From contig ONBK01000002.1 in the NCBI GenBank assembly GCA_900316055.1, positions 103,090 to 167,089 of the forward strand: a stretch of 64,000 nucleotides of DNA, given 5' to 3'. The translations under genes were made by a program, and so were the position numbers. Below the pieces are notes generated by a model. The model had not been told where the DNA came from and made no database searches. It saw nothing but the letters and a program-made list of their open reading frames with translations. This document shows, one piece after another, positions 33,435-63,385 of this stretch. This stretch comes from an uncultured Bacteroidales bacterium (GTDB lineage Bacteria > Bacteroidota > Bacteroidia > Bacteroidales > P3). The stretch's first letter is position 1. Every line of letters starts with the position of its first letter.

Positions 33435-33670
33435 TCCCGTAGGGACGATATATTTTAGCCGTGGGTGTGAGCCCACGGCTAATGAAAAAACAAAACAAAT
33501 GTAGCCCTGTAGGGGCGACACAAACACAGCAACAATGGCCAATAGTTATGCTCAAATATACGTCCACATCACTTTCCACGTGAAGGATGACAGCAGGATT
33601 GACAAGGAAGATCTGACCAATCTGTGCAAGTATATTACGGGTATTAATATATCGCCCCTACGGGGCTTCT
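33434..33670. repeat. REP-like palindrome cluster
   Basis: Four palindromes are visible: GTCCCGTAGGGAC (33434-33446), AGCCGTGGG/CCCACGGCT (33457-33480), GCCCTGTAGGGGC (33504-33516) and GCCCCTACGGGGC (33654-33666). The last two are near-copies of each other and bracket the truncated transposase reading frame. The layout fits a REP element pair with a REP-associated Y1 transposase. Confidence 0.78.
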
Positions 33671-50535: not shown

Positions 50536-51213
50536 ATGAACAAGGTGACTCTTCTTATTGGCGGCAACCAGGGAAACCGGGAGCTGCTGATAGACCAGGC
50601 GACAGAGCAGATACGGCAACGTATCGGCTCTGTCGTTGCTTTGTCGAGTATCTATGAGACGGAGCCATGGGGCGACTTTGAGGACAATCCCCAAACTTTC
50701 CTCAACCGCGCCCTGCTGGTGGAGACGAGTCTGGCACCATTGGAAGTGCTGTGTGAGGCCCTCTCGATAGAGAAGGAGCTGGGAAGGGTGAGAAAAGTGA
50801 TTAGATGGGATGAAGCATCTCGGTCACAGGATACCCCTCAGTCACTTCGTGACAGCTCCCCTATTTTAGGGGAGCAACAGAAAACGGGCGAGTCCTTCTT
50901 TGTAGAAACTGGCCAGCAGGAAGTATCCATTCAAGGATCCTCCCCTAAGATGGGGAATGAGCACGATGTCCAGTGGGTATCTGCCGAAGGGCGGGGGGGG
51001 ACAGAAAAAAAACAACGAATGTATTCAAGCCGCCCGATGGACATCGATCTTATCTTCTACGACGACCTAGTGATGAATACCGTAGAACTAACCCTGCCGC
51101 ATCCGCGGATGCATATGCGGCGCTTTGTCCTCGAGCCATTGGCCGAAATCATGCCCAACCACCGGCATCCCTTGCTCGGGAAAACGGTTACGGAACTTCT
51201 GTCTGAGTTATGA
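50536..51213 (+). CDS. folK: HPPK (folate pathway) with a large in-frame insertion
   Basis: This is 6-hydroxymethyl-7,8-dihydropterin pyrophosphokinase, 225 aa where about 150-160 is normal. The family core is intact: LLIGGNQGNRE (7-16), YETEPWG (40-46), FLNRALLVET, ELGRVRK (81-87), then SSRPMDIDLIFYDD (164-177), LPHPRMHMRRFVLEPL. Between GRVRK and the RPxDIDL motif lie about 70 extra residues (88-160), at the mobile catalytic loop 3. Of these, 99-148 are encoded by a 150-bp palindromic element. The rest includes a G8 and an A8 run. Whether the enzyme still works is uncertain, although the frame is open and every other motif is kept. It overlaps the next gene by four bases. Confidence 0.9.
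   Translation: MNKVTLLIGGNQGNRELLIDQATEQIRQRIGSVVALSSIYETEPWGDFEDNPQTFLNRALLVETSLAPLEVLCEALSIEKELGRVRKVIRWDEASRSQDTPQSLRDSSPILGEQQKTGESFFVETGQQEVSIQGSSPKMGNEHDVQWVSAEGRGGTEKKQRMYSSRPMDIDLIFYDDLVMNTVELTLPHPRMHMRRFVLEPLAEIMPNHRHPLLGKTVTELLSEL
50831..50980 (+). repeat. Protein-coding palindromic element, copy 1 (in folK)
   Basis: The element is 150 bp from ATACCC to GGGTAT, exactly 50 codons. The left half has two hairpins, GTCAC-TTC-GTGAC and GCTCCCCT-ATTT-TAGGGGAGC-type. The right half (from 50938) is a degenerate inverted copy with TCCCCTAAGATGGGGA. It is translated [17 protein letters not shown] ... GSSPKMGN. A second copy lies in pdxJ in the same reading frame. Confidence 0.88.
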
Positions 51214-58304: not shown

Positions 58305-58401
58305 AGTCGCAAATGTGGATAGATTTGTAATGATTGCAACCACTTGAAAAAATGCTAAAGCGTTGTTCAACTGCGACTTCATTCTCAAATCTGTTACATT
58401 T
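58305..58401 (+). ncRNA. Candidate structured leader of metK
   Basis: In the 132-base leader, 58311-58327 can pair with 58386-58401: AAATGT/ACATTT and AGATTTG/CAAATCT with one bulge and two wobbles, about 16 bp. Inside lie AATGA/TCATT and TTGAA/TTCAA pairs. AGTCGCA (58305-58311) also pairs perfectly with TGCGACT (58372-58378), crossing the long helix as a pseudoknot would. No match to the SAM-I or SAM-II cores is seen. It is a hypothesis from hand pairing only. Confidence 0.4.
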
Positions 58402-59693: not shown

Positions 59694-59995
59694 ATTACAC
59701 AGGCCTTATTATTGGTGTCGCAACATTCTTGTGTATCGGCCTTTTCCATCCATTGGTGATCAAGGCAGAATATTATTTCGGAGTGGGGTGCTGGTGGGTA
59801 TTCCTCGTGTTGGGATTGATTTGCATCGGCGGATCGTTATGGGTTGAGGACACAATACTGTCCACCTTGTTTGGAGTCACTGCATTCTCAAGTCTGTGGT
59901 CTATTTTGGAAATTTTCAAGCAGCGTGAACGTGTCATGAAAGGTTGGTTCCCGGAAAATCCTAAGAGAAAAAACAAATATAATGACCAAGCTTAG
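59690..59995 (+). CDS. DUF4491 family small membrane protein
   Basis: This 101-aa protein has three hydrophobic helices ([56 protein letters not shown]) and a basic cytosolic tail ([16 protein letters not shown]). [13 protein letters not shown] and GWFPENPKR match DUF4491 as I know it. Function unknown. It is coupled to metK (ATGA) and overlaps pdxJ by 14 bases, so the three genes form one translation unit. Confidence 0.86.
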
Positions 59996-60824
59996 TGTAA
60001 ATATCAACAAGGTGGCCACCATCCGCAATGCACGTGGCGGCAACACACCGGATGTATTGAAATTTGCAGTGGACTGCGAGCGTTTCGGGGCCCAGGGTAT
60101 CACCGTCCATCCGCGTCCCGACGAGCGCCATATCCGCTATGCCGATGCGCTGGCCATCAAACCGCTCATCGGTGTAGAATATAATATTGAAGGAAATCCC
60201 AAAGGCATCTCGAAAAGCCGTCCCTACGGTTTCATCGACTTGGTGAAGGAAATCAAACCTGCGCAGGTGACGCTGGTGCCCGACGCCGAAGGGGTGCTGA
60301 CCTCCAACGCCGGCTGGGACACCGTCAAGAACCAGGGCTATCTGTGTGATGTAGTCGAGGAGTTCAAACAATGTGGCATCCGTGTGAGTATCTTCATCGA
60401 CGCCAACCCCCAGATGATTGAGATGGCCGCCAAGACGGGTACGGATAGGGTGGAGTTGTATACTGAGGCGTATGCTTCGGGGTACCATCGCTGTGTAGTT
60501 AATACCCCCTCCCCCCTTCGGGATACTCCCCCTATGTTAGGGGGAGAGCAGGAGAATGCTTATGGCTGCTCCCCTAAAATAGGGGAGCTGTCCGAAGGAC
60601 TGAGGGGTATAATCGCACCTTTCGTCGAGGCCGCCAAGGTGGCCCGAGATTGCGGCCTCGGACTCAATGCAGGACATGACCTCTCTTTAGAAAACCTCAC
60701 CTACTTCCATCAACAAATTCCTTGGTGCGACGAGGTCTCTATCGGCCACGCCCTTATCAGCGACGCCCTCTATCTTGGCATTGAGGAGACCATCCACCGT
60801 TACCTTAAATGCTTGAATGCGTAA
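59982..60824 (+). CDS. pdxJ: Pyridoxine 5'-phosphate synthase with an in-frame insertion
   Basis: This 280-aa protein is about 240 in relatives. It condenses 1-deoxyxylulose 5-phosphate with aminoacetone 3-phosphate to give pyridoxine phosphate. Core motifs are intact: [17 protein letters not shown] (3-19), [19 protein letters not shown] near 69, [21 protein letters not shown] near 155, then after the insertion [21 protein letters not shown] and [13 protein letters not shown]. Residues 174-210 ([16 protein letters not shown] ... [15 protein letters not shown]) are extra and come from a 109-bp palindromic element related to the one in folK. The insertion lies in a loop of the barrel before helix 6, so activity may be kept. 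Confidence 0.94.
60502..60610 (+). repeat. Protein-coding palindromic element, copy 2 (in pdxJ)
   Basis: The element is 109 bp from ATACCCC to GGGGTAT. The left half carries CCCTTCGGG and CTCCCCC...GGGGGAG hairpins. The right half is an inverted copy with GCTCCCCTAAAATAGGGGAG followed by CTGTCCGAAGGACTGAGGGG. That right half, read in reverse complement, is almost the left half of the folK copy. Peptide [14 protein letters not shown]...SPKIGE. Confidence 0.9.
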
Positions 60825-60844
60825 ATGTGTTAATGCGTAAGTGT
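60806..60844 (+). repeat. AATGCGTAA/AATGCTTG-type repeat across the pdxJ end and GH20 leader
   Basis: Units AATGCTTG, AATGCGTA, AATGTGTT, AATGCGTA run through the pdxJ stop (CLNA end) to the ATG at 60845. Similar to the tract at 8026-8051. Confidence 0.72.
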
Positions 60845-63385
60845 ATGAAAAGAATTATTGTTGTATTGTTGCTGGCTATTAGTTTGTCGGCCTATGCTCA
60901 GGAACAGATTAATTTAGGCCTGATACCCACGCCGCAGAGGGTAAAAGTCGGACACCCATATAAGCGCTTGTTCAAAGTCAATAGTGTGAGAGTTAAAGAG
61001 TATCGAGTTGATACACTTCCTGTGGAACGCAATTTGCAGCAGGCCTATCAATTGAGTATGGGTGCTGGTGAGATAACTATCCGCTATGTGGGCGAAGAAG
61101 GTCTTCAGAATGCTCGGCTTACGCTAGAACAGCTTCGCGAGGTGTACCCTACGTATTCACAAGGCATCACCATTATTGACTGGCCGGCCTACTGCTGGCG
61201 CGGTTGGATGGACGATATTAGTCGCGGACCTGTACCGCACCAGGCCTTCCGCGAGAAGCAATGGAATAGGCTCCATGCGCTGAAGTTCAACTACTGCAAC
61301 TACTATACCGAGCATACGCTCTACCAGCCGGAGTTTCCCGACCTGGCGCCCGCCTATGCCGCCGAGTGCAAGCCGCACCCTGACGAGGTCATCAACCTGC
61401 AACTCTTCGCCCATGCCGAGAAGACGCTACGCATCCCCTTCTATCAGCACCTGATGGACAGCAAGGCCAACTTCGACCCCGGCAACGAGGCAACCTTCGA
61501 CTTCCTCAGAAAGCGTATCAAAGCCGCATACGACCGCATCCCCAACTCGCCCTTCTTCATCATCAACTGCGACGAGACCGAGCAACTTGGCACAGGTCGC
61601 GCGAAGGAACTCGTCGACAGCCTTGGCGCCGACCAAGTCTATGTCGACTTCATCAACCGCTGCTATAATATCGTCAAAGAACTTTCACCTTTCACCTCTC
61701 ACCTTTCACCTCGCATCGCCATGTGGGGCGACATTGTCGCCAAGAACCCCGAGATGATGCGCCAGCTGCCGAAGGACATGACCTACATCATGTGGGCCTA
61801 CGAGCCTATCGATAGCTTCAAGCATTTGATAAAACCCTTCAAGGATCAGGGCAACCCCTTCTGGGTCGCCGCCTCGACGGGACACAGCGCCACCATGACC
61901 TCCACGCCGCAGCGCTACATCAAGAATATTGCCAACCTCTTCCGTGACGGCTACCGCGACGGTGCCGAAGGCGCCATGCTCACCTGCTGGGACGACAACG
62001 GTGAGGCTCTCTTCGACAACTCTTGGCATGCCCAGTACTGGGCCGCCGAGATGGCCTGGAACCCCCTCAAGACCGACAACCCCGAAGAGCTGCGCCAGCG
62101 CGAGGAGCAGTTCAACAAGAACTTCGAACACCTTTTCTACGGTCGCCGTGTGGACGGCGGTTCGCCCGCCGTCTTAACCCAGCAACTCTACTCCGTCGGC
62201 GCCCTGATGTACGATCCCGTCGCCGGCGACTGGTACACCTCCGCCGCCCTCCTCGAGCCCCTCCTCAACTTCAACCCAGAAAACACATCTGACGATATTT
62301 ATTTACATAGTGGCTCGTTGTATTGGTATCTGACAGATTCACTTAGTATTGACTCCGCTGCCAACCCTCACGCACATTATGCAGTATCTCGAATGATTGC
62401 CACCGGTACAAAGGCGGTATTACGTAAATTAATTTTTCAGCAATGTATTGATTTTGATGAAAGATTGATTTGGGAAATAAGGTTTAGAAGCGAAGATTAT
62501 CTACGGACACTCTTTAACCTCAAGCGCGAATACCTCCGCCTCTGGGACCAAGAGAATGGCGACTACGAGCGCTATATTGTGTGTAATAGATACGATGCGC
62601 TCGCACGCGAAGTGCTGGAACTCGACCGTCATGTTTTTGCTCAGATTATTCAGAATAATCAGAATACCCAAAGTATTCCGATGGTGCAACTGAGAACCCT
62701 CTACAACGACCGCCCCATCTACTATACCCTCGACGGTAGCGAGCCCACCGCCTCCTCCACGAAATACGAAGGCCCCTTCCCGCTGGAGCGTTCCGCCACC
62801 ATCCGTTCTATATCATATAATGAATATGGCGAGGGTGTCATCAGCGAACAGTACCTGCTGAGCCACCTCGGCATGGGCGCCAAGATAACCCTCAACACCA
62901 AGTACAGCGACTATAAGGCCATCTACTCGGGTGGGGGAGAGTCCGCCCTCATCGACGGCCAACTCGGCAGCAACACCACCTACGCCGACGGTCACTGGCA
63001 AGGCTACTGGGGCGACAGCATCGACGCCACTATAGATTTTGGCAAGCCTACAGAAATACATGAGGTGAGTATGCGCTTCATGCAGAACACTTTTGACTGG
63101 ATACTAGCTCCCACCCAAGTCAAGGTCTATGTGTCAGAGAATGGCAAAAAATGGACCCTTGTTTCCGGCAAACATTTCGATATGGACCCACGCGAAACTG
63201 GCATGCGCCTGCGCAGTTACACCGTAGACCTAATGCAAACGAGCAAAGGGGAGGCGAAAATAATAGGCTATCCTGTCACCCGCTACCTCCGCGTCGTCGT
63301 CCCCAACCCCGGTCCGCTGCCCGCGTGGCATCCCGCTCCCGGCCAGCCCTCCTACCTCTTCACCGACGAAATCATAGTCAAGTAA
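60845..63385 (+). CDS. Exported GH20-like beta-hexosaminidase with chitobiase-C and F5/8C-like domains
   Basis: ATG 60845 gives a signal peptide (MKRIIVVLLLAISLSAYAQ), for 846 aa. About 20-105 is a GH20 N-terminal-like domain. About 110-460 is the barrel, starting DWPAYCWRGWMDDISRGPVP, with an Asp-Glu pair in FFIINCDETEQLG that fits the GH20 acid/base pair. About 620-660 is a chitobiase C-terminal-like unit (PIYYTLDGSEPTASSTKYEG). About 690-846 is a discoidin/F5/8-like carbohydrate-binding domain (YWGDSIDATIDFGKPTEIHEVSMRF). The usual GH20 HxGGDE motif is replaced by NCDE, so substrate specificity is uncertain. Two repeat-encoded stretches are present: LSPFTSHLSP and IIQNNQNTQS. Base composition changes along the gene. 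Confidence 0.82.
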   Translation: MKRIIVVLLLAISLSAYAQEQINLGLIPTPQRVKVGHPYKRLFKVNSVRVKEYRVDTLPVERNLQQAYQLSMGAGEITIRYVGEEGLQNARLTLEQLREVYPTYSQGITIIDWPAYCWRGWMDDISRGPVPHQAFREKQWNRLHALKFNYCNYYTEHTLYQPEFPDLAPAYAAECKPHPDEVINLQLFAHAEKTLRIPFYQHLMDSKANFDPGNEATFDFLRKRIKAAYDRIPNSPFFIINCDETEQLGTGRAKELVDSLGADQVYVDFINRCYNIVKELSPFTSHLSPRIAMWGDIVAKNPEMMRQLPKDMTYIMWAYEPIDSFKHLIKPFKDQGNPFWVAASTGHSATMTSTPQRYIKNIANLFRDGYRDGAEGAMLTCWDDNGEALFDNSWHAQYWAAEMAWNPLKTDNPEELRQREEQFNKNFEHLFYGRRVDGGSPAVLTQQLYSVGALMYDPVAGDWYTSAALLEPLLNFNPENTSDDIYLHSGSLYWYLTDSLSIDSAANPHAHYAVSRMIATGTKAVLRKLIFQQCIDFDERLIWEIRFRSEDYLRTLFNLKREYLRLWDQENGDYERYIVCNRYDALAREVLELDRHVFAQIIQNNQNTQSIPMVQLRTLYNDRPIYYTLDGSEPTASSTKYEGPFPLERSATIRSISYNEYGEGVISEQYLLSHLGMGAKITLNTKYSDYKAIYSGGGESALIDGQLGSNTTYADGHWQGYWGDSIDATIDFGKPTEIHEVSMRFMQNTFDWILAPTQVKVYVSENGKKWTLVSGKHFDMDPRETGMRLRSYTVDLMQTSKGEAKIIGYPVTRYLRVVVPNPGPLPAWHPAPGQPSYLFTDEIIVK
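61683..61710 (+). repeat. In-frame TTTCACC repeat in the GH20-like gene
   Basis: Four TTTCACC-type 7-bp units encode LSPFTSHLSP between two conserved barrel segments. Confidence 0.78.
62641..62669 (+). repeat. In-frame CAGAATAAT repeat in the GH20-like gene
   Basis: ATTCAGAATAATCAGAATAC-like units encode IIQNNQNTQ. The same family forms the leader of the DUF4249 gene (53652-53688). Confidence 0.78.

Follow-up and report, generated by a model that had tools for sequence, protein, structure and literature searches.

Readable copies of a probable dispersed two-armed palindromic element inside pdxJ and other genes of an uncultured Bacteroidales bacterium

The best-known cases of palindromic repeats read in frame inside protein-coding genes come from the intracellular lineage Rickettsia. 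The cited accounts outline Rickettsia palindromic elements (RPE) as palindromic repeats of about 150 bp that lie in frame in unrelated genes and encode a recurrent peptide (PMC10969869, PMC3733652). The GTAG and CGTC REPs, in the outline given by Di Nocera and co-workers in 2013, are short palindromes that have one stem of 6-13 bp and bear GTAG or CGTC as a terminal tag, often arranged as inverted dimers and in some cases located inside ORFs of known proteins, and Bacteroidetes are among the five phyla from which that source reports CGTC repeats (PMC3733652). REPINs or BIMEs are presented in the cited summaries as two inverted palindromes forming one unit of mosaic composition (PMC3116915, PMC2817692), and for mitochondrial genes of Nematomorpha the source abstracts inverted repeats within coding sequence that are kept readable (PMC6649704). 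Here, a palindromic insert in pdxJ of an uncultured Bacteroidales bacterium was analyzed together with related copies, starting from a window of 64,000 nucleotides (the whole stretch of DNA that was analyzed). We consider it very likely that the insert belongs to a dispersed family of two-armed palindromic elements that carry no gene themselves and are similar to a MITE or a REP pair, and that the readable genic copies of this family survive. The features concerned are, in window coordinates:

59982 to 60824, plus strand: pdxJ, the host gene, 280 aa; ORF open through the insert; Pfam PdxJ match at residues 3-277, E = 4e-82
60502 to 60610, no strand assigned: palindromic element in pdxJ, 109 bp, codons of about 175-209; inverted repeats, without counterpart in 66 aligned relatives
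60502 to 60548, plus strand: left arm of the pdxJ copy, consisting of an outer part, stem-loop 1 and the inner hairpin CTCCCCCTATGTTAGGGGGAG (60526-60546)
60568 to 60610, minus strand: right arm of the pdxJ copy, facing the left arm, with the inner hairpin GCTCCCCTAAAATAGGGGAGC (60568-60588)
50536 to 51213, plus strand: folK, the second host gene, 225 aa; ORF open through the insert; Pfam HPPK match in two stretches, E = 6e-32
50831 to 50875, plus strand: left arm of the folK copy; reverse-complement match to the right arm in pdxJ (96%); arm model E = 5e-14
50939 to 51003, minus strand: degenerate right arm of the folK copy, recognized by eye; hairpin CTCCCCTAAGATGGGG, then GCCGAAGGGCGGGGGGG

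The right arm in pdxJ also holds stem-loop 1 (GTCCGAAGGAC) and the outer part ACTGAGGGGTAT, and it matched a covariance model built from 57 of 58 distinct arms with E = 5e-14, whereas the left arm matched the model at positions 163590-163634 of contig C19 with E = 1e-4. The core hairpin CTCCCCTAWNWTAGGGGAG occurs three times in the 64-kb window when up to three mismatches are allowed, as compared to a mean of 0.06 occurrences in 100 dinucleotide shuffles of the window, none of which reached three. Folded as single-stranded DNA, the pdxJ insert gave a z-score of -6.4 (three copies: -6.4, -10.8 and -6.0). The sequence-only reading had stated that pdxJ and folK share the same element in the same frame, and this was borne out: both ORFs are intact, the hairpins are read in one common register (..CCT ANN NTA..), and the peptides ending in CSPKIGE in pdxJ and SSPKMGN in folK are read as it had given them. 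The reverse-complement match between the copies that it described was likewise recovered, since the left arm in folK and the right arm in pdxJ agree in opposite orientation at 96% over about 44 bp (E = 1e-12) and the pdxJ insert itself contains inverted arms. The degenerate right arm in folK forms an 88% inverted repeat with the left hairpin and was without match in the arm-model search of the own genome. A pattern search of that genome returned three loci; besides pdxJ and folK, the element was located on contig C13 in a 328-aa ORF with a Dus (tRNA-dihydrouridine synthase) match at residues 8-311. The copy in this third host reads THTPPPFGSPSPKLGEE in the same register as in pdxJ and folK, and this gene has a second, degenerate arm about 130 bases further upstream (arm model E = 5e-6). 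All three strong loci of the own genome are inside genes and in frame; further arm-model matches there were weak (E of 0.02-0.4). Apart from the element, the window holds a SAM-II riboswitch at 58309-58368 (Rfam RF01726, 56.9 bits).

Comparison of the copies revealed a common arm anatomy: CACAC(T/C)CCTC is followed by a variable stem-loop and the hairpin CTCCCCTANNNTAGGGGAG, and a short core separates the two arms, which are in facing orientation. The variable stem 1 falls into three classes (CACC...GGTCCCC; CGTC or CGCC...CAC; AGTC...ACAG or CCAG), and its 125 distinct sequences have a longest perfect stem of 5.4 bp on average as compared to 3.1 bp after shuffling, which indicates that pairing is kept while the letters change. 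A frequent second type of right arm, recognized by eye, reads CTCCCCCTCTAAGTTAGAGGGGGTG...GGGGGCGTGTGT. Two arms were found by profile in 36 of 157 distinct copies, spanning 121-225 bp, and in the rest the second arm is diverged or of another type. A perfect 11-bp palindrome, TTAGCCGTGGGTGTGAGCCCACGGCTAA, is located between ORFs at window positions 33455-33482, and similar palindromes (GCCGTGGG...CCCACGG) adjoin element copies at three loci (L104, L121 and L143).

With at most one mismatch, the core hairpin was detected in 15 of the 121 family genomes sampled, that is, in 15 of 51 from the genus of the window as compared to 0 of 70 from other genera; the reversed pattern, used as control on the same sample, gave one match per strand in a single genome. 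Within the genus, 56 of 120 genomes matched the arm model at E ≤ 0.01, many of them with one or two matches near the limit, where single matches of about E = 0.01 may be due to chance, and the number of arm matches per genome ranged from none to at least 49. Across the order, 22 of 393 genomes matched at E ≤ 1e-5; they represent 17 of 206 genera, among them the genus of the window. Partial matches (23-71% of the query) were present in 12 of 72,556 plasmid records, all from sphingomonads, e.g., the Sphingomonas plasmids L293 and L294, and the core hairpin occurred in six stretches of five viral contigs, three of these stretches showing a recognizable arm (L288, L290 and L292). The arm-like palindromes of viral contigs and of plasmids from another phylum may go back to a shared ancestor, or GC-rich hairpins may have converged.

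With regard to the insertion site, 80 pdxJ loci were fetched and 66 could be aligned. Neither the insert nor its peptide was present in any of the 66 aligned relatives, in which the site corresponds to a loop of variable length; thus, pdxJ orthologues carrying the peptide without palindromic DNA, an outcome named by the sequence-only reading as speaking against its view, did not appear among them. The 14 unaligned loci include the closest relative, L073, which shows 91% identity over residues 1-175 and is cut by the contig end within the loop. A different palindrome-rich stretch (GTACGGGCAGCTTGCCCGTAC...CACAGACCAGCAGTCTGTG) occupies the same loop in the last bases of this contig (L073:1980-2050). 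Of 30 folK loci, 24 allowed the loop to be read, the copy of the window itself (L295) among them, and the loop length varied from 21 to 94 aa. Elsewhere, this loop contains other repeated sequence, e.g., NLKLKNEKLLPQSNYSNNQAIKQSSNHK twice in L296, and L306 is a further case, from which it follows that the loop accepts several repeat types. An AlphaFold2 model of PdxJ based on 40 aligned proteins had a mean pLDDT of 88, with the barrel mostly above 90 and residues 181-200 at about 50-56, between helices 162-173 and 205-223. The match to the homologous structure 6w6a stops at PdxJ residue 168 and resumes at residue 210, with seven chain residues in between. We read the surviving genic copies as tolerated loops of protein that are probably disordered.

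The reading frame was evaluated for 187 elements from fetched loci, of which 157 are distinct, an uneven sample drawn mostly from high-copy genomes. Eighteen of the distinct copies lie at edges, and the other 139 were judged via codon scores of their flanks. Forty-nine of them are open and in frame inside genes with coding flanks; they include orthologues, 17 falling on seven shared sites, and thus represent about 39 sites. Among the other 90 copies, flanks are coding on one side in 40, on neither side in 34, and on the same strand with a shift in eight, while six are in the same frame with a stop and two have coding flanks on opposite strands. The codon-score caller is conservative, as the folK and dus copies were scored as non-coding. 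In 10 of the 14 shifted or stopped copies, the reading that comes from upstream stops short of the element; in three others (L239 twice and L242) it terminates within the element or its first arm, and in one (L232) directly past the element. Judged by reading, not by homology, these 14 copies are taken as intergenic or located at gene ends. A clear case of a broken gene was not seen among the copies read, with 74 of the 139 (coding on one or neither side) uncertain, so that broken genes may be missed. This would also be observed if insertion were directed to readable sites instead of being filtered later. Loss by selection, however, predicts the same picture, and a transposition machinery able to sense the reading frame is not known to us, which leaves directed insertion extremely improbable.

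All 60 arms scored across the 49 genic copies are read in one register, 31 of them opposite to and 29 along the gene. Of the 57 distinct genic arms, 0 and 3 are free of stops in the two alternative sense registers; for 90 distinct arms from the remaining judged copies, the corresponding counts are 5 and 6, as compared to 87 that are open in the register in use. Since the palindrome puts TAG or TAA into the other registers, frame agreement follows from stop avoidance alone, and a selected peptide is not needed to explain the shared frame. The sequence-only reading had taken the shared frame to suggest selection for a tolerated, stop-free peptide or insertion only where the result is readable. 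In line with it, the element is dispersed in unrelated genes, the genic copies found stay readable, and they are not spread over the three frames; selection for the peptide, by contrast, is superfluous, and the use of both orientations yields different peptides, which argues against one favoured peptide. Coding selection was also probed via the hairpin spacing modulo 3 (20 of 20 genic copies as compared to 8 of 20 copies with stops in the registers of both strands), and the spacing was rejected as evidence because the stops in the other hairpin registers mean that an open frame forces the spacing. It might still be argued that the encoded peptide itself is useful, e.g., as an interaction tag, and kept by positive selection, given that a motif of the SP(N/K)LGE type recurs in many unrelated proteins (SPx[LI]G in 48 of the 49 genic copies). 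This motif is, however, forced by the palindrome in its single open register, the flanking peptides differ with the nearly equal use of both orientations, and a given site carries different arms in different species, all of which renders a useful peptide very unlikely.

Pfam matches were obtained for 40 of 47 host ORFs scanned, seven being without any, and the hosts are mostly ordinary conserved proteins. Domains that span the insert are PHP (5-249), NIF3 (5-300), TatD (4-271), Radical_SAM_N (4-328) and RibD_C (302-455). That the hosts are unrelated, the positions within genes variable, both orientations used and the arm consensus free of a T-run speaks against hairpins acting as mRNA regulators (terminators, stability or attenuation) with an incidental in-frame reading; although many copies lie between genes and some directly after a stop codon, we regard such a role as highly improbable. 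Returning to a dispersed element whose readable copies survive, we propose that copies would settle both between and inside genes, where essentially one register per strand is stop-free; those with a suitable landing phase and length could then persist as an extra protein loop, and other genic insertions would presumably be removed by selection. Judging from the sequences, the insert would be translated and tolerated by the enzymes, and unreadable insertions would be lost.

Between species, orthologous sites vary in the class or the length of their arms, with flanks that align and a frame that is kept. Arms differ at site A between L089 and L152 and at site D between L127 plus L110 and L221, whereas at site F (L124 and L159) indels of 8 and 7 nt jointly preserve the frame and a third right arm is present in L048 (UBA2939); at site B, L154 was unaligned and excluded. 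The gene downstream of pdxJ (60809-63385) is element-free at window positions 62140-62227, and its relatives L124, L159, L006 and L048 carry the element in frame at the matching place. Pooled over seven sites, third codon positions were identical in 50 of 55 hairpin codons as compared to 1483 of 2365 in the rest of the same genes (p = 6e-6), a result for which one of nine single comparisons was below 0.05, codons were chosen based on the motif, and constraint and exchange are not separable. Together, the arm differences and the third-position identity fit a replacement by other copies, the alternative being repeated insertion into one loop. The element may be both mobile and coding, with ends open to exchange: inside genes, its arms would be replaced by arms of other copies through gene conversion or renewed insertion with the frame kept, a scenario that we consider possible rather than probable. 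If it holds true, one enzyme loop would carry different peptides in different species, and protein loops would be a lasting refuge for the element. Alternatively, the insert could be excised or bypassed at the level of RNA or ribosome and never appear in the protein, for which the strong hairpin folding and the excess of conserved third positions in hairpin codons might be quoted. Exchange between copies also explains the latter, and removal or bypass needs neither an open frame, which genic copies have (the class itself being defined by openness), nor indels that compensate to multiples of three; this explanation is highly improbable.

The element is probably mobile, as suggested by its patchy presence and by copy numbers from none to at least 49. 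A clean empty site at base level was not found among the relatives, where alignment to the base failed because their flanks are loops of variable length. Terminal inverted repeats of the form CACAC(T/C)CCTC...GAGG(A/G)GTGTG were identified in 35 pairs, a few with one changed base, and no flank repeat stood out as target-site duplication in these pairs, whose ends are not fixed by empty sites. A RAYT/Y1 transposase was considered as mover but gained no support: Y1 was detected in 16 of 21 genomes with five or more arm matches as compared to 57 of 99 others (p = 0.14, Fisher), none of the 30 Y1 loci fetched contained an arm, Y1 being the sole transposase family searched in the genus, and genome G099 with at least 49 arm matches had no Y1 candidate. 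By analogy, terminal hairpins on either side without a visible duplication are reminiscent of single-strand (HUH) transposition, although the distribution of Y1 genes does not follow that of the element.

A literature search that included short DNA and peptide strings of the element and mostly left subscription papers outside its coverage returned no report of the family. This is a new family of a kind already known (RPE and intragenic REP) in a lineage without report in the literature searched. It accounts for odd SPNLGE or SPKLGE segments in predicted proteins and calls for caution in reading them as functional domains, and loops that are empty, filled or arm-exchanged form natural series in which enzyme tolerance to insertions can be studied. 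Similar to MITEs, the element has inverted ends, no gene of its own and a patchy copy number; unlike them, it showed no target-site duplication in the 35 pairs and is without known parent transposon. It resembles REPINs and BIMEs, as summarized for these, in the unit of two inverted palindromes (36 of 157 distinct copies) and in mosaic composition, and differs from them in lacking association with a Y1 (RAYT) transposase. With GTAG and CGTC REPs as outlined by their authors, it has in common that palindromes are short, pair up in inverted orientation and in part lie within ORFs; in contrast to them, it has two hairpins per arm. CGTC stands beside stem 1 in one arm class only and is followed by AG, whereas A-T is given for the first and second pairs of CGTC repeats, so that the second stem pair differs (compared by eye). 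The palindromes of Nematomorpha, as abstracted, are perfect repeats in animal mitochondria, whereas the Bacteroidales element forms a dispersed bacterial family. With RPE, compared by description, it shares the in-frame location in unrelated protein genes (49 of 139 judged copies; Pfam matches in 40 of 47 hosts), and it differs in its host, an uncultured Bacteroidales genus, in the use of both orientations and in arm classes that vary at orthologous sites; the RPE sequences are presumably other than those of the Bacteroidales element. Taken together, its occurrence in a gut Bacteroidales genus with genomes of 2-3 Mb implies that in-frame palindromes would not depend on the intracellular setting of Rickettsia.
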